Source of the DNA: Gavia stellata
Lineage: Eukaryota > Chordata > Aves > Gaviiformes > Gaviidae
Reading direction: 5' to 3'
NCBI RefSeq assembly: GCF_030936135.1
Contig: NC_082610.1
Location: 17,308,428-17,372,427, forward strand
Length of the DNA: 64,000 nt
The translations under genes were made by a program, and so were the position numbers. Shown in pieces: positions 3,030-61,646 of the stretch. Under the pieces are notes generated by a model. The model made no database searches. It was not told the DNA's origin and saw only the letters and a list, made by a program, of their open reading frames with translations. Position 1 is the first letter of the stretch. Every line of letters begins with the position of its first letter.

Positions 3030-6000
3030 GTACCCAATTATATGTCTTGCAACTTTTGTAGGTAGATGTTTTTATAATCTTACTATTTTCACAAGAAGTG
3101 GGAAAACAACCTGTCAAGACTAATCGGTAATAATCCAACAAATGCAAGGACTGCAAAGCTATAGCATGTCATATTTCTGATGTATTAATATATATTACAA
3201 AACTATATATTGCAATATATGTATAGAATATAAAAATGCACATTGCAATCTTTTTGACCTTTTTATATAGCACCTAATTTATTAGTCACTTTTGAGTAGT
3301 TACTCAGTTGTATGTGCTTTCAGCTTGCAAAAAGAAAAGAGTTATCATATGATAAATACATTTCTTTTTGACTATGCAAGCACTGGAAACTCATTCTTCT
3401 GGTTTTGCTTCTTAGGACTTCCAACTGTGGTTAAGTTGGTGGATAAGGACACATTATTGAAAGAAAGAGAAGAAAAGAAAAAGGTTATTATTTTAAGCAT
3501 TCTATATTTTGTAAATGTAAAGTAATGTGTAAGCTGTGGATACTTCTACATTTCTTTGATAACCTGTAAGAAAAATCTTAACAGACTAGCAACAAAGGAA
3601 AAAAAGAGAATTGATACTAAAATTTGAGTGGTGTTCAGGAAAAGAATTTTTGAAACAGTAACTTCTTGAAAATTTTATATGGGACCTAATGAATATCTCT
3701 AAGGTTTTTTATTTGTTTGTTTTTTAAGATCTTCATATAATTAAGGGATGTTGAGCATTGCATGCGTACTGTCTTACCTCTCTGGAAGAACGATTCCAAT
3801 GAGAAGTTAAATTGGACTTCTTTTGTCTGTACATATGAAGTTGACATTTTCCACAGAACTAGACTGCATTTATCTGATATGTGAGAACAAAATGCACTGG
3901 CTAAACCTTAATTAATGTAGTATGGATGAGTGAAATATTCAGGGTGTGGGGGCAAGAATTCACAGGTTACTATATAAAGATTGTGAATCCTCATTCACAT
4001 GCACAAGGTCTGTACAGAAACCTTCCTTTTGGCACTTGCTAGCATTAATATTTGACTTTGTAACATTTGAAAGCAATACTTCATATGCCGTTCTTCAGTT
4101 TTAACAAATAATAAAATTCCCTCATGACTAGAAAGAAGACCTTTGGAAGTTTGGAAGACTTTCCAACATTTCTCCTTTCACGTAGATGTTTTTTAGAAAA
4201 GGGAGAAGTAAAATGTAGTTTCAGCCAATTCCAGATGCTTTCATCAAAAAGACATTTGAAGGCAGTTTGTATATAGCTGCTGGGTGGGACCTGCAGCTAG
4301 AGTACATTTTCCCTGCAAACAGTATTACGTTCAGTACTGGCAGAACCCTTGGAGAACTGATAGGTCTCTCCTAAGCAAGTGCAAGATGAGATATTTAATT
4401 TTTTTTTAAGTTTTAGAAGTTGGCTAAATTTGGAGAGTTGTTTCCCTAGGAACATCAAGGGATACAACTGCTTCTTAAGAAACGCTAATGTCTTCACAGT
4501 TTGAGGCAAGAGCTCAAAATATGAACAAAATATGGTCTTTTTTTAAAGTCATTTGCAAAACATTTTTCCCTGTGAAATGGCAGGACCATTTCTTTTGCAG
4601 GCTTTGTAGGTATTCTTTCATATGTATACATTTTGCATGCAAAATGCATTCTGAACAGTTAAAACTGGTTTAACTGTGAATAAAAGCAAATGAATCAAAG
4701 CCATACAGTGGGAAGTATCAGACAATCCTAATTATAAGGCTTGGTGTTTCTGCTGCAGGTCATGCTGCCAGTTCTGTCTGTAATTAGACATCTAGGGGAG
4801 CTAGCTGGCTCAGATTTTTAGAAAACAACCAAATGAAGTAGTTACCTTTTACTCATAAACATTGCCTTTCGCAGATTGAAGAAGAGAAAAAAAGGAAGAA
4901 AGAAGAAGCAGCCAGGAAAAAACAAGAGCAGGAAGTAAGTGTTCAGATCCTTTTAATCTGGTTTTGAAGAAAAGTGTTAGCAGCAATAGTCACGTGCAGG
5001 AAAGATTACATTAGAACACAGGCTCTCTGCCCGGCCTTAACTGGGCCTCCATTTACTGTTTTTTGTCTGCAGTTTCCTGCTCAGAATGACTTTGGCTTGC
5101 AGTTCGGATTTGAATATTCAGCTCCTATTACAGAGAAGCCACATTTGAAAACACAACTGCAAAAGCTGCAAAAGCTTCTTAGAAGATCTTGTAGCACATA
5201 TTTCAGTCTATAGACAGTATTACCTCCTTAATTGCCAAAGTAGTATCTTACATGCCTGTTAGAGAAGATTTTACTCGTGTCATTTACTATTTTCTTCCCT
5301 TTTCAGTGTTGTAGGTTATGTGTGAAAACAGGGGTTTTTTTCCTCTTTAAGAATCCACCTATTCCCTACAATTGAAATCTGAAATATAGTGCTTTGTAAA
5401 AACACATTTTATCTCTACAGTTGGAATTGAGATAGCTGAGAGGTTTTAGGCTTTGGATGAGGAGTAGACAGCCAGAGGAGATGAACTCATAGGAAGAAAA
5501 GATTGTCTGCCATGCTGATGACTCTGTAACAGTACAGGAAACGTATTCCTGGGTTAAAAGAGGAAGTAAACTTTTAGAGAGCACCATGTACAGAGAGAAA
5601 ACCACATAAATAGCATTTATAATCCACAAATTCCAAGTAGCTTTTTGCATTCTTTCAAAAAGGTGATTCCCTTGCATTAGGCATAAATTACTTGGAAAGG
5701 ATTCTGAGATGTGCCTGTTTATAGGTAAGTGAATGTTCGGTATATTTTCAGTGCAATTACTTGCATCCTGATCCTGCTATGACCTGCATAGAAATATGTG
5801 CTTGTCAGCTGGAAAAACATATTTTTTTCCCCTGGACAAGCACAGCTAAGATTTATTGAGTTGTTACTCACTGAAAGTTTCTTTTCACATGATAAACAAT
5901 TGTGAATTAAATGCTCTTTGATTTGCAAATTATAGTCTACTTTTCCTTTTGCATAGGTGAGAGGTTGTCAGTAATTAACCGTGATGCTAATGCAGTTAAT

Positions 6001-21700: not shown

Positions 21701-24700
21701 CAAGTTACATTGAAACGTAAGTACAGGGCATAATAAAATTCTTGAAAGCTAAAAGCATAATAGAACCTTATTACTGTATAATTAAGGTAGGAAATTAGAA
21801 CAAATGATTCATAAAGAAAAATGGTTGACTTAATCCCTGATTCATAGTGGCCTACTTCTGAAAAGAAGAGTCAAGTTTTAGTTTACTTACACAAAATTGC
21901 AAACAAAATTTTGTCCAGTTCAGTATTTTTCTTGACTATTATTATTTTGGTTAGAAATTACTCCCCTCCCCTTGTTTCCTTCTGTGACCCTTATCCTGTC
22001 AGGGCATGTGCTGCATTGAATGATGATTTATATAAAATTGCTGTCCAGGATGTAGTGGAAAGTTCAGGACCTGTAAAACCCTAGTTTGAAGCTTAGTTTT
22101 ATATTAACTGTAGAGTAGACTTAAACTTTAAAATTTTGCCTGTAGTAGATATTTGTGCTTTTATTTCTTGACTGGGAATAGCTGGTAGACCTCTTTTTTT
22201 AAAAAAAAAAAAGAATGCTATAAAAAGTTAGCTTAATAATTTAAAGTACGGGTGGGCAATATGTACTTTTCTGAGTATGACCCATGAATCAAAATTTTCC
22301 CCTGTAGAATGCACAGTTCTTATTTTTCACAGATGGATCAGTACAACTCTAGTCTCAAAGTTTAGGTGTAAATGAAGGTATTAATTTCAGATCTCTGAAC
22401 TACACGGGGAGGGTGGTGGCCCCAGGGAATGGAACAGAAGATAACACCTTTGAGAACAACTTGGGTAGGAGAGGATTCTTTCAACTTTTTGAAATAGGTT
22501 TTGAAGCAGTATGTATATTTGACATTAGCCTTTTATTTAAAAATTGCATTTAGTTTTAAGCAGCCTATTTCACAGTGATATGTTAAATAATGCTGAGGCA
22601 ACTAACTTTTAACCTTAAAGAATTGTTTGGTTTTTAGTTTACCAAAAGCAGTGAAAAGAAGAATTGATGCCTTGAAACAGCTCCAGGTGAAATGTGCCCA
22701 TATAGAAGCTAAATTCTATGAAGAAGTACATGATTTAGAGAGAAAATATGCAGCACTCTATCAACCCCTTTTTGATAAGGTGGGAAGACTATGTACATAA
22801 TCTCTGTCTCCTTCTAGCTGAGTCAGTTCTGTTTGCATATATGTAATTTTGTATCTTCAATGACATTCTTGATTTTTCTAACACAGAGAAGAGAGTTTAT
22901 TAATGGGGAAGCCGAACCCACAGATGCAGAGTCAGAATGGCACAGTGAAAATGAGGAAGAAGAAAAACTAGCTGTGAGTACAAGCCGGGTAATGAATTAG
23001 AGATATATTGGATTGTCAGAATTAATTGCTGTACAGTGTTTTCCATTGAAAGGCTCATCTTTTGGAAATAAAGGTTTTATCAGTAATGTGCTCTTGTGAT
23101 GAATACACTGTTATGTCCAGTGAAAGCTTTTAAACTTTTAGTTTAGCCTTTTTTCAAAATTGTAACTTGAATGAATTGAAAAGTTGCCTTTGTTTGCACT
23201 GTTCGTAACCTGTTAACAGTATCTTTCTGATAATGGGTTCCATTCCAGTGCTACATGATACCCCAAGATAATAGAAGGCTGGCTGTTTTGTTTGCCTGTC
23301 CCCTTTATTTTGGGGGACATAATTAGCTTTCATATCCATAGATACGGATTAGACATGTCACCTAGTCATAAAATGGAATCGGCCTAATAAAATGTGTCCT
23401 GGCTAGTGGATTCCTACTTGTCTATTGAGTAAGAGCTATCTAGATTTAGGAGGGATAATATAATCTGTAGGCTGCCTCTGACTCTCCTGTCTTCATTTTT
23501 GGAGATGTATACTCGTGGCTTGCTGCTTTTCCTCAAAGAAGTGACCTGCTTTCAATGCTGTGTCTGCCATTCGGTCAGGTTTTCTTTGCATGTTTCCCTT
23601 GGCCCCTTTTCCTTCAGTTTCCTTTGGACACTGTTCTGTATACAAAGCGAATTGTTCTCTTTGTTTTTACTGATCTCATGAGACTTAGCATGACACAGTA
23701 CTCCATGTGCATAAGCAAAAAAAGGTTTGTTAGGCTTTGTGTAAATACAGCATTGACAAGCCATATTCCATGCAATTATAAGATCAGAAACATGTCCAGA
23801 TGGCAAAGAAACTGCTGCTTCATATTTTTGGCTAGTCATAACCCAAGTGGTTGCTGTTCAGAAGATCTTATATATTTGCTGCTATCTAGTGGTGTAAAAG
23901 GAAAGGTGCAGCACAACTAATTCAGACTGTGAATTTCCTGTTTTTTTGGGATGAAGAAGTGACTTAGTCATTCTTCTTTTTTATAACATTTGACATCAGT
24001 TATGTGTAGGGAATCCTGTATCACAAAAGATTAATAATTGAAGACAGTGTGGTAATGAGAAATAACCATGAAAACCAACTTTACCAAGTATTCTGCAAAT
24101 TTGGGAAGCTAAAACAGTATTTCAGAGGGCAAAGTTAAATTTTAAATTTTTAGATGAAACACTGTAAATGGCACAAGAAGCTATAGGAATGAGATGATAG
24201 AAAAATAAATGTATTTATATTTTTTTTGTTTGTAGAAAGATATTTCTGTTTGCCAAGTCAATGAAACTGTCACTTGGTCTGTTTAGTTTTTGTACAGAAG
24301 AATTCCAAGTGAGTTGAAAAATCTGAATTAAATGTATATATGTTTTTAGTTGTGTAAATAAACCTTGTGTCTCTTAACTTCATTTACAGAGAAAAAACAG
24401 TGTAAATTTTAAATGTTCCTTAAACACAGCTTCAGAGATGGCAAATGTTTTGTATGTCTACGTCTGTTCATTAAATATATTAAGAAGTTGTGATTTAATT
24501 TCTTAAATGTTTCTGTATTTGTTTCACAGGGAGACCTGAAAAACGTAGTGGTAATAGAAGAAAAAGCAGAAGCCGAAGAGACAAATGTCAAAGGAATTCC
24601 AGACTTCTGGTTTACTATCTTTAGGAACGTAGATATGCTAAGTGAATTAGTACAAGTAAGTTTCTCCTCTGAAAAGAATAACTTCTGTCATGTGTCAAAT

Positions 24701-27700
24701 GCATTGCTACTTTTTCTGATTAATAGTGAGTGCTTCTAGAATGTGTGTGGGAGACCAAATCTTTGAGTCTTCAGAATCCCTAATATTCCTGAAGGTGCTT
24801 GAAAGGCTGATGATGGACAGGCAGAACAGCTGACCCAAACTGCTAAACACTATGTGGATTGTTTAAGAAATGATGTTGTAACAACCTTTGTAGATACGAA
24901 AATGCAAGTTTATGTACTGCTTACAACAGCTGTTCCCCTGTAGTTTTGTTCATTTAGTCCATAAAGGATTATTTTTGCAAGGATATGATAAGCATATCCA
25001 TGGATTGGTTGAATTTGTATTAAATAGCTTATGTAGTTTTGCCCTCAATTATATTAATTGCTTTTAATGCTTCTAAGGAAGAATTCCCTGAAGCATATCT
25101 TTCTGTGAATCTCACCGGCAATAAAGATCCTGAATGAAATTATTTTCAGTAATGTTCATTCAGCCTAGCATGGTAGCAGCTGTATTTAGTGAAGACGAGG
25201 CCTAATGATTTAGAATTTGGTACGTGGTATTTGCAACTACAATTAAGAAATTTGGATCCAAATCTGAACTTTAGCTGAAATTGTTGAATAATTACAAGGT
25301 CTGGTTCTTTCTTAAGAACAGGTTGAACAGGCAAGCTAGGTTAAAATTTTGTTCTTCTAAATATTGTCTGCTGAATAGGAATTTCTTTTTTCTTTTTTTT
25401 TCCTTCTGAGGAATATGATGAACCAATCTTGAAATATCTGCAGGACATTAAAGTTAAGTTTTCTGAACCCGGACAGCCTATGGTGAGTTTTCTCTGATTG
25501 TTTCTCATGAAGATTGTAGTAATGAAGTGAACAGCATTTCAAAGTTTTCATTCCATTCTCTTTGGCTGGAGTGTGTGTGTGGGGTTTCTTTCTAGGCTAT
25601 TATCTTCATGCTTTGCCTTTTAAAGATTTATCTACAGCTTTCCTGACCCTTTGCTCATTATTCCTTAGCCTGGACAACTCTGACGTCATTGTAGTTTCCA
25701 GATTAAAATTCTGGCTCAATACTGTTTAGTTTTCACTTTTTTTCTTGTCTCAAATTCCAAATTAGCTACTCTTACTAGTAAAGTTACATGGCTGCTTTTG
25801 GTTTGAAAATGAGTTGTGGAAAAAATTCTGGGTGCTACCTTCTATATTGACTATTTCATCAAAAGAAGAGATGTGACTCAGTAATATTAATCAAAAACAA
25901 TTATGATGGATACTGTGCCTATTGAAAAGGATAGAGAAATATATTAGATGGTCTTTTAAAATTGTACCTAATGCGTAATTTTTAAAGTAGAACTTTGCCT
26001 TTTTTTTTTTGGAAGTTGTTTTCTTGAGAAACAGATACTGTGTTTGTTAAAAATAAGTTGTTCTGTTGCTTATTTAATTCATGCAGACTACACTTGAACT
26101 TGTTTTGAGGGGGCAGCAGGGAGAAAGAAGGACGGGATTTGAGCCTACACATCCTTTCTTTAAACTTCATCCTTGTGGCTTTTTCCTTACATTTGGTATT
26201 TTTTATTTTGTCTTATGGAGTTACAGTCTTCTGACAAAGTCTAAAATAAATGCAAGAAATACTTCATTGAGGATTCATGTAAGAAAGGTGGAAGGACTTT
26301 CTCAAAATACCTTTTAAAGGTTAATAACATCTGAGGCAAAATTCTTTAGTCGTCATTGTCTTTCTCCTATTAGTATCAAAACACTTGAGCTGATAATCGG
26401 CAAGAGAACTAGTATGGACAGAGGAAAAATTAGGAATGAAGTTCCTAAATATTGCTAGGGCTGAAGGAGAGGATATGAGTTTTATGAAGAAAATGAATTG
26501 TTTAAGCACAAAGTGAAGTATTCTAAGAAGTTGGTGGTTTTAATCTTGAAGCTTATCTATTCGGTGGCATTTGACTGATTTGGGAATAGTTGGTTTTGCC
26601 TACAGCATTTTTGTGTTCTCATTCAGCTTTGTTTTACAGTACTTCAAGTTGAAGAACTGCTCTTAAAACATCAATAGGTTTATCTTGTCTTGCACTGTTC
26701 GTAACCTCTTGACAGCATATTTCTGTGAATGGGTTCCATTCCAGTGCTACATGAAATCCAGTAATGGAAGGCTGACAAATTCCATGTCCCTTCTGTATTT
26801 GGAGACAAAAGGATGCATTCCTGACTGCTTGAGTGAAACGTGCTATCCAGTTATATGTGACTGTCTTGTCTGAAATTCTCTTGACTGTTGAAAATTGGTG
26901 CATAAATAACAATAATTCTGCTGGGGATTAGGTTTTGCCGCTAAAAGAAATACGTAATAGTTAGGAATTCTCTGATTTACCATTGACCAAAGTGATTAAC
27001 TGTAGTTACGGTCCTCCAAAAGTAGATTTACCTGGCTACAGTAATGGTGCTTCAAAGTTCTGTTTGTTATAGCCTGTATATATAAACTTTTATCCGCATA
27101 AAATATAAGTGATTCCCTTACTTTTTGCTCTTATTAATTTATAATCGTATGAATAAACTTACATATGTTTGTATAAATATAATTTCTACTTATGTATTTA
27201 TTTGGACATCAGGATATTTAACTAGCAAATTCAGACCTGGATGATGCATCTGGTTATAACTTAAGTAAGTAGCTTAAAATAGGGAAGTTCTCTTTTTTGA
27301 ACTTCATGAGAACATCTCATACTACAGGGAAGATCCAGAAATACATGCTAGAAAGGTAAGCTGATATCAAAAGCGAAGATGTCCAAATAAAGACTACTGG
27401 AAAAGTTATTACAATGCTTTAAATAGAATGTGAAACTTGAAGCTTCTTCTTATTGTCTCCTAATTAGCAGGTATAGCACGAAATACTGAAGTGCAGTCTC
27501 TGCAGATGTTTTTGTCTTGCTAGTCCTTGGGATCCTGCATGCTGGGTAGTGCCACTGGTTACCTATTTATAATCCCAGTGATGGTTTGTGGGATTATTTG
27601 AGTACGAGTGTTAGTCACTGGTGGTGGATTAGCTAAGTTTATAACTCTTCCCCTGAGCATGTTTGCCAGAGAGAGATTTGCCTTAGCTGAAGACACCCTC

Positions 27701-30700
27701 CAAACCATACTAGCTGTCTCGAATTGCTTTAAAATGGAAGTAAAGGTGAAATAGACTACGTGAAGCCAACACAGATATTCCAGTGCACATGTGGTTCCCA
27801 GTGGCTTCCTTTCCTTAAACTGTGAGCATGTGAGTTGGGAAGGCTGCTGTTGCCGCTAGTCTTCATAACTCCTTGACCGCTGTCTTTCCAGATTTCAATT
27901 ACGTGAAGAGATTCATGGGATCTTAGAAAGACTAAGGGGTCTGTGGGAGATGAGTGAGGGATAAATGTCTTTGAATATGCTGTTGTCCCCAGCATTATGC
28001 ATCCCGTCTGCACATGGTGGGCCTTCAAAAAGAGAGGATGGCAAGGCAGACTTGGGTGATAACAGATGATTTTCTGGCCTGAGTCTGAAGAGTGCCTGGG
28101 AAAATATATTCAAGCCTAGTGTTTTTTGCAATTATCTAATCTGTTTTGTATGCACACTAAGTCTAGTTCTTATGGCATATTGCTGGGGGAGTAAATAAAA
28201 TATTTTAAGGTAACTGTTAGGCATACTGTGGCTGTGCAGTAGACACGATGATGTTGCGGGTTTTGACTTTCAACCCTTCTGTGTTGAAATGACCTGCAGA
28301 CTTTTTTCCCCCCTTCAAGTAACTAAAGCAATGCTGCTGAAAACCTTTATTGTTTCCCCAGTTCCAAGGCAGTTTGTGTTTTGTTTTACTTTTAAATAGT
28401 TCGTAGTTGATCCTGAGTGCGAAGTGGGCATATATATATAGCATTGTGCAAGCAGTTTTTGAAAGCTTTACAGATTTGAAAATTGATGCATTGTGTGTGC
28501 TGCAGTTTTCCATAACCGGAGCCTTTTGTTCTCCATGTAAGAAACTGAATTTCTGCAAACAACTTTCAGGTGCCACAGGAGGCTCAAACATAAGCAGAAA
28601 CACCTGCTTCAGGCTGTAATCTGTTAAGACCTGTGTAATCTCAGGCTTCAGTTTATGAAGTCGGTGTTCTTTTGCAGGATTTTCTATTATCAAATGAAAA
28701 AAAACCCTCTGGTTCATGGTGGAGTGCACTGTTTAAATACAGACTCCTGCAATCTAATTTTTTTTTAATTGGAAGCAAAGTCTGTTTTAGTCTCTCAAGA
28801 TTATGACATTTAATGATCCGAGTCAGGGGAGTAACAGAACCTGATGGTGTTATTCTGAAGTCATTCTGACATCAGAATAGCAACTTCTTCATCCCTAGTC
28901 AAAGGTTGATGACTAGGCTTCCATAGAAAATGAAACCAAGGCTTTTCTCGAAAGTACTTTATTTCTAAGGTTGCTTTTAAAATAGCAATTATATACGTAA
29001 AGGTGAATGAAATGTAGTAATTACCTGATTATAATGTGAATGTTAATACTAGCCAAGGTTGTTCTAGCTTCCTGCATGTTCAGAATTGGTTGACATTCTT
29101 AATTTCCTGCTTCTGCTGTAGTTTGAAAGATATATTTGCCATCAAATTCTTATTTTTTACTGTATTCAGGGTTTGATTAATGGTAATTCTGCTGATGCAC
29201 TGCTTCAAAGATAAAAATTAGTGGTAACATAAAATTGTAATGGAACTTTCTTCCAGTCTTTCTCATTAGAGTTCCACTTTGGGCCCAACGACTACTTTTC
29301 TAATTCAGTCCTGACAAAAACATACAAGATGAAGTCGGAGCCAGACAAGACAGATCCCTTTTCATTTGAAGGACCTGAAATAGTTGATTGTGAGGGGTAA
29401 GGAAAACCTGAAATTCAAAAAAACCCTCTGAAGTAATAGTCTGTATTTTCTAGATGCTGTTTTCTCTTACTGTGATAATAATTAATGAAGATAAAATAAA
29501 GCTTTTGCTGACTTAAAAACTGGGAGAGTTTGTAGGGATGATGATCTTAGCCTCAGCATGCAGAAGTAACAGATACATAGATATAAATATGTTTTAACAT
29601 AGTGTGCATTTTAAATATTACACCTTTCAAGTTTAATAGATTACTAATGAGGTAACAAGCCTTTTATTTCCAGATAGCGGGGTAAATTAATTTTAATCAT
29701 TACATTTCATAGACCCCCCCATCCTCAGTCTGATAAGTAGCCTTAGACGCTCTTGGACTCTTGCTCATCTCCTCAGCAATTTTTATTCTAGCAGTACTTT
29801 TGAATCTGGCAGGAATTGGTCATATGTATGATCTGTTCTTTCAGCCTGTTTTGAGGCTGGAACATACTGGCCACGCAGTTTGGTTCTGGCAGTTGTGGCT
29901 AATGCAGTGATTTTTTTTTTTTTTTTTTTTTTTGCAAAATGTGTTCAGAAACTGACTGTGGGATGGTGTATTCTCATCTCTGTTCTGGAAGTCTAGTGAG
30001 TTGGACACCACATTAGAGTTTTTCTCTGGGTAAAGGATCATTCCATCTAACCTAACACTTTCTCTTCCCATCAGTGATCTCTGCTCTATAACTGATGTTC
30101 AGTGCCATACCAGAGCAGAGCTGACACAACTAAAAAATACTTTTGTACCTGATTTTATTTTGCTTCCTTGCTGTTTTGTCTGTTATTTTTTGTTTGCCTT
30201 TTTTTTTTCCCTTGAAGGATGTGTGTTTGGGTTTTGATGGGAGGGGTGTTTTTGTGGTTTTGGGTTTTTTTTTGTTGTTTTAAACTAACATTTAAGAAAG
30301 GGTTAGTTAAGAAGATTTTTAATTGATATAAAAGTGTCAGTTAGCACAGTAGCAGAAAGGAACTGAAAAGTAAGCTCTTCCTAGCTTGCTGTGCTTGACT
30401 GCCAAATCGGTCTGGGCACTGCTCTTTGGAGAGGTAAAATGTGCCTCTGCCTGGCCACTCCTTTTGCATTTATCTCCAAGGTAACTGGACGCTGCCTTGG
30501 CCTGTAGTGAGAGGATGTAAAGTATTGTTTTCTGTTGGTCCGACTGTTGGAAGAATAATTCTCAGCTGTTGAGATTTTTCTGGAATAGCTTAATCATGTC
30601 CTTGGTTACAAAACTCCAACAGTTGGAGCAAAGAGGTATTAAAGTATGGGTGGGGTGGGGGCAGTGATTACTCTGCGAAGACAAACTATTTAGCTTTTTC

Positions 30701-61247: not shown

Positions 61248-61646
61248 ATGAAGATGCAAGCCGAGGTGATCCGCGAGGGCGAGCTGGAGAAGCGGAGCGA
61301 CAGCCTTTTCCAGCTGTGGAAGAAGAAGCTGGTGGTGCTGACCAAGGACAGCCTCAGCCTCTTCCCCGACGGGCACAAGCGGGCCAAGGGCAAGGAGCTG
61401 GGCTTCGGCTCCATCCTCAAGGTGGACTGCGTGGAGCGCACGGGCAAGTACATCTACTTCACCATCGTCACCAAGGACCGCAAGGAGATTGACTTTCGGT
61501 GCCCGGACCAGAGCTGCTGGAACGCCTCCATCACCATGGCCCTCATCGACTTCCAGAACAAGCGGGCCATCCAGGACTTCAAGAGCCGCCAAGAGATGGA
61601 GCAGGCGGCGGGCACCCAGGAGCGGCGGCTGGCCCGGGCGCCCTGA
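61248..61646 (+). CDS. PHLDA2: Pleckstrin homology-like domain family A member 2
   Basis: PHLDA2 (IPL/TSSC3) is a small cytoplasmic protein that is almost entirely one PH domain. It binds phosphoinositides and restrains growth; in mammals it is maternally expressed and limits placental size. Here it is a single uninterrupted coding exon of 132 residues starting [20 protein letters not shown]. The PH fold spans roughly residues 7-100, with [21 protein letters not shown] and the C-terminal helix [20 protein letters not shown] matching human PHLDA2 closely. The tail after the PH domain is short; the human protein has about 152 residues with a Pro/Ala-rich end that is absent here. The start has A at -3, and a second Met follows at residue 3. 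The conserved neighbour NAP1L4 supports PHLDA2 over PHLDA1 or PHLDA3. Confidence 0.97.

Follow-up and report, generated by a model that had tools for sequence, protein, structure and literature searches.

A second SNORA54 copy in an intron of the NAP1L4-like gene of Gavia stellata

The window analysed here (64,000 nucleotides of Gavia stellata contig NC_082610.1, positions 17,308,428 to 17,372,427) contains two similar H/ACA snoRNAs in different introns of one gene, which raises the question of whether the second of them is a guide RNA with its target preserved, a decaying relic, a molecule with a new target of its own or a member of a dispersed repeat. A literature search for ACA54 together with NAP1L4 returned only one paper, Shao et al. 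2009 (PMC2653536), which describes two isoforms of chicken GGgACA39 (identified as ACA54), hosted by introns 7 and 9 of NAP1L4. The SNORA54 pair in bird NAP1L4 is already known, from chicken, and the novelty suggested by the first-pass annotation does not hold, the chicken pair having been published in 2009; because of this report, the pair is regarded as ordinary. According to the same source, nearly all chicken snoRNA paralogues were attributed to intragenic duplication, and RT-PCR was applied there to 14 guide and 20 orphan snoRNAs (PMC2653536). In all likelihood, the second Gavia copy (copy 2) is the intron-8 member of this bird within-gene pair, with a 5' pocket able to guide the 28S Psi3801 site, a reading adopted because of the full-length Rfam matches, the 4+7 duplex with 28S rRNA, the position of the differences between copies outside the pocket, lower stem and boxes, and the chicken intron spacing (N and N+2).

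The two copies and their host gene

When the whole window was compared with Rfam, no family besides SNORA54 (RF00430) reached its own cut-off. Copy 2 matches the full model (1-129) with 98.9 bits (E 2.4e-18) and copy 1 matches the full model with 94.9 bits (E 2.3e-17), both above the curated cut-off of 60 bits. The element that had been placed at 26691..26810 and called SNORA54 is confirmed as such by Rfam, its start being one base earlier (26690), and the observation of a second SNORA54 copy is likewise confirmed. The copies and the exons around them are as follows:

22887..22973, + strand: NAP1L4 exon 6 (reading frame and splice sites)
23194..23322, + strand: SNORA54 copy 1, H/ACA snoRNA, in the intron between NAP1L4 exons 6 and 7 (22974-24529)
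24530..24655, + strand: NAP1L4 exon 7 (reading frame and splice sites)
25411..25482, + strand: NAP1L4 exon 8 (reading frame and splice sites)
26690..26810, + strand: SNORA54 copy 2, H/ACA snoRNA, in the intron between NAP1L4 exons 8 and 9 (25483-29256)
29257..29396, + strand: NAP1L4 exon 9 (reading frame and splice sites)

Exon and intron numbers assume one 5' noncoding exon 1, to which no position is assigned, and with this numbering the copies lie in introns 6 and 8, the two introns being separated by two exons. The protein joined from exons 2-10 contains a Pfam NAP domain (300 bits), and its best solved-structure matches are NAP1L1 chains. The host gene appears to be NAP1L4-like, the L4 label coming from its sequence, the hosting of SNORA54 and a PHLDA2-like neighbouring ORF: we take the host protein sequence to match that of NAP1L4, and PHLDA2 is presumably the neighbour of NAP1L4 in human. 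This ORF (61248-61562, same strand, downstream of NAP1L4) contains a PH domain (31.6 bits) and looks like PHLDA2; it had no match in NCBIfam, which is a library for prokaryotes.

The chicken pair, compared by description only, is alike in family, host gene, the position of its copies two introns apart and a 5' pocket pairing with 28S-3311 through 4+7 nt; it is unlike in its intron numbers (7 and 9 versus 6 and 8 here), a difference probably due to exon counting. Mammalian SNORA54 (ACA54) shares the H/ACA anatomy, the 5' pocket, the Psi3801 target and the host gene NAP1L4. The intron of mouse Snora54, between exons 8 and 9, would be that of copy 2; one location is named in the mouse source (PMC12101510), as opposed to two copies here. 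Two published observations weigh against the main reading. Of the multi-member H/ACA families counted in human, only 7.3% are reported to have every expressed member in a single host gene (PMC8178906), which makes an arrangement such as this one less usual there. A rhesus SNORA54 probe was reported to give no northern signal in chicken muscle (PMC2832892); probe mismatch is a possible cause, because the conservation score of SNORA54 to chicken is given as 0.24 (PMC2832892).

The 5' half and its predicted pairing with 28S rRNA

Copy 2 has the box anatomy of an H/ACA snoRNA, with two hairpins, an H box (ANANNA) as hinge and an ACA three bases from the 3' end, and its parts are the following:

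26697..26700, + strand: 5' pocket left guide strand GUUC, which pairs 4/4 with the 28S segment
26735..26741, + strand: 5' pocket right guide strand UCCAUUC, which pairs 7/7 with the 28S segment
26749..26754, + strand: H box ACAUGA (copy positions 60-65)
26757..26803, + strand: 3' hairpin (fold versus shuffles; paired changes relative to copy 1)
26805..26807, + strand: ACA box, three bases from the 3' end (tail ACAAAA)

The first base of GUUC doubles as the closing base of the lower stem, and UCCAUUC lies 14 nt upstream of the H box. Of the 65 positions of the 5' half, 59 are the same in the two copies; the six differing sites (positions 19, 22, 27, 30, 37 and 38) all fall within the apical stem-loop. 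If six changes were scattered at random over the 65 positions, all would fall in these 24 with P ~0.0016, a value to be read with the region chosen post hoc. Both copies have the same H box (ACAUGA), the same pocket strands (GUUC and UCCAUUC) and the same lower stem of six pairs. The first-pass annotation had counted six differences in the first ~64 bases, all in the upper stem or loop, and had described the 5' pocket and H box as identical between copies; the alignment bears out both statements (six in 65), and its claim that SNORA54 has been duplicated into another intron of one gene is supported, with the boxes and the 5' guide kept. Compared with shuffles, likeness between the copies reaches z 17.2 for the 5' halves and 7.4 for the 3' halves, and that of the 150-base flanks is no greater than in shuffles (z 1.1 and -0.7); since the flanks are no longer alignable, copy 2 is probably old.

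A 28S-derived segment, GAAUGGA-U-GAAC, can form the same 4+7 bp duplex, with 11 of 11 pairs, in the 5' pocket of both copies. Its source is a short 28S-like fragment of contig C1 (~L007 4470-4640; G000:C1 near 27852506), which lies in lower-GC DNA and was the sole exact match to a pattern of the Psi3801 region. No Rfam family reached its gathering score in this fragment, and a pattern for the sarcin-ricin region of 28S had no exact match in the assembly. Several hundred bases upstream of the fragment there is an apparent CR1 LINE piece, which we take to be such an element. The target U is taken as human Psi3801 because of an assumed numbering and the agreement with the chicken 4+7 duplex. The base beside the target U is usually unpaired, and the fourth left-hand pair of the duplex uses this base. 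For human 28S Psi3801 the guide is given as SNORA54 (PMC9941101), and chicken GGgACA39 is reported to guide 28S-3311 via 4+7 nt of its 5' pocket (PMC2653536). With its boxes and 5' pocket intact, copy 2 very probably retains the 28S site of copy 1 as its target.

As an intron-encoded H/ACA snoRNA, copy 2 would, like others of its class, be freed from the spliced NAP1L4 intron and be bound by the H/ACA proteins dyskerin, NHP2, NOP10 and GAR1, and its 5' pocket, the pairing of which with 28S was found, could guide pseudouridylation at the site known as human Psi3801 or chicken 28S-3311. That copy 2 is instead a decaying and unexpressed snoRNA pseudogene would fit with a folding weaker than that of copy 1 and with the loss of two upper-stem pairs. 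Relative to copy 1, pairs 19-41 and 22-38 of the 5' upper stem are lost and pair 23-37 is gained; the whole-copy fold energy gives z -2.42 (5 of 500 shuffles as low) versus -4.08 in copy 1 (0/500), and the 5' hairpin of copy 2 alone gives z -2.54 (16/500). However, the Rfam score of copy 2 exceeds that of copy 1, its pocket, lower stem, H box and ACA box are untouched, the double-sided changes in its 3' base stem are still paired, and it is intact although probably old, all of which make a pseudogene very unlikely.

The 3' hairpin and its pocket

Between the 3' halves, 38 of 64 alignment columns agree when a gap is scored as a difference, and the 3' hairpin of copy 2 alone folds with z -2.01 (21/500 shuffles as low) or -2.23 (6/200). 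On mapping of the Rfam structure, 29 of the 31 model pairs can form in copy 1 and 28 in copy 2. In this Rfam-mapped alignment of the copies, which was fitted to structure, 7 of the 12 pairs of the 3' hairpin differ, and five of these are changed on both sides and paired in both copies. In the free folds, the four pairs of the base stem of the 3' hairpin are predicted for either copy with probabilities of at least 0.89; two of the four, model pairs 68-122 and 71-119, have different letters on both sides. The three other double-sided pairs are missing from the free fold of copy 1, in which the 3' stem continues with other partners, closing the pocket, and one of the three is missing from that of copy 2 too; above the four pairs of the base stem, the copies fold differently. 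Two compensated pairs are taken as firm, and three are not, because of this absence from the copy 1 fold. The drop from five to two leaves the standing of the main reading as it was, because the 5' half, the boxes and the published chicken entry are its grounds. The first-pass annotation had described the 3' hairpin as changed in sequence with its pairings kept; this stands for the four pairs of the base stem, which fold as it described, and fails for the upper pairs, which differ.

The letters of the 3' hairpin and of the apical stem in the RF00430 consensus differ from those of the copies here. Copy 2 has retained the consensus bases (UCCA/UGGA) at the base of the 3' stem, where two pairs have changed in copy 1; in the middle of the hairpin, 24 of 40 positions match the consensus in copy 1 versus 10 of 40 in copy 2. 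The right strand of the 3' pocket has three different readings, in copy 1, in copy 2 and in the consensus. Divergence from copy 1 in this strand could mean that the 3' pocket of copy 2 took a new target and was kept for that reason, and mouse Snora54 has been reported on two 28S sites, mediating Psi at 3478 and 4221 (PMC12101510). Such a new target is nonetheless unlikely: copy 1 and the Rfam consensus also differ there, so that the region looks free to drift, and the chicken GGgACA39 entry names a target of the 5' pocket only, in a table that shows one isoform only (PMC2653536). A division of labour, in which both copies keep the Psi3801 guide and copy 2 has acquired, through its 3' pocket, a separate target specific to birds, is considered quite unlikely. 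A drifting scaffold is a simpler reading of the 3' half than a shifted target in copy 2. The 3' hairpin of copy 2 is still a hairpin, its base stem conserved and its pocket letters different, and it probably acts mainly as a scaffold. The pair offers a clean example of within-gene H/ACA snoRNA duplication in which one pocket is frozen and the other hairpin drifts; it can help annotation and the dating of snoRNA duplications in birds, and changes no concept.

Copy number, origin of the pair and the SNORA35 locus

H/ACA copies in human have been credited mostly to retrotransposition (PMC8178906), and more than 40,000 snoRNA copies have been reported in platypus (PMC10234308), so both copies could in principle be members of a dispersed retroposed repeat family. 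The first-pass annotation had itself named a dispersed repeat at many loci as the finding that would overturn its reading. When copy 2 was used as a DNA query against the 1.32 Gb genome, at least two places were found, which are the two copies themselves, and the SNORA54 family search of the genome found at least two places above the cut-off, again the two copies, both in NAP1L4; both counts are lower bounds, and of 34557 first-look candidates 57 were scored in the family search. A third place found with RF00430, at 47.2 bits, is below the cut-off and corresponds to SNORA35. No direct repeat of nine or more bases bracketing either snoRNA was found. A dispersed repeat is rejected at the sensitivity of the DNA and family searches and is regarded as extremely improbable. 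Downstream of copy 2, the stretch 26832-26854 resembles 26743-26765 at 17 of 23 bases and was judged by eye to be a chance match.

With the within-gene pair as the preferred reading, the two copies can be compared as candidates for the ancestral one. In mouse Nap1l4, Snora54 is reported to lie between exons 8 and 9 (PMC12101510), and this intron position favours copy 2. Consensus identity (93/129 in copy 1, 79/129 in copy 2) favours copy 1 as the possible ancestor, and at the six differing sites of the 5' half copy 1 has the consensus base at four and copy 2 at none. The presence of the pair in chicken and in this bird would mean that it predates their split.

SNORA35 was found at positions 1501-1630 of locus L005 (G000:C10:25170128-25170257), the only place found and a lower bound. 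It lies ~0.7 kb downstream of the apparent last exon of RPS8, on the same strand; an RPS8 motif is present at L005:684, 1 of 12 RPS8 motifs having been found in the locus, and SNORD38 is located at 372-443. Mammalian SNORA35 sits in HTR2C, unlike SNORA35 here, which is near an RPS8-like exon. Among the papers searched, none has both SNORA35 and RPS8; the chicken snoRNA paper mentions RPS8 and not HBI-36 (PMC2653536). SNORA54 and SNORA35 share the lower 5' stem GCACUG/CAGUGC and an AUUC before its right arm, and the SNORA54 model gives SNORA35 its 47.2 bits; the two families may have a common origin.
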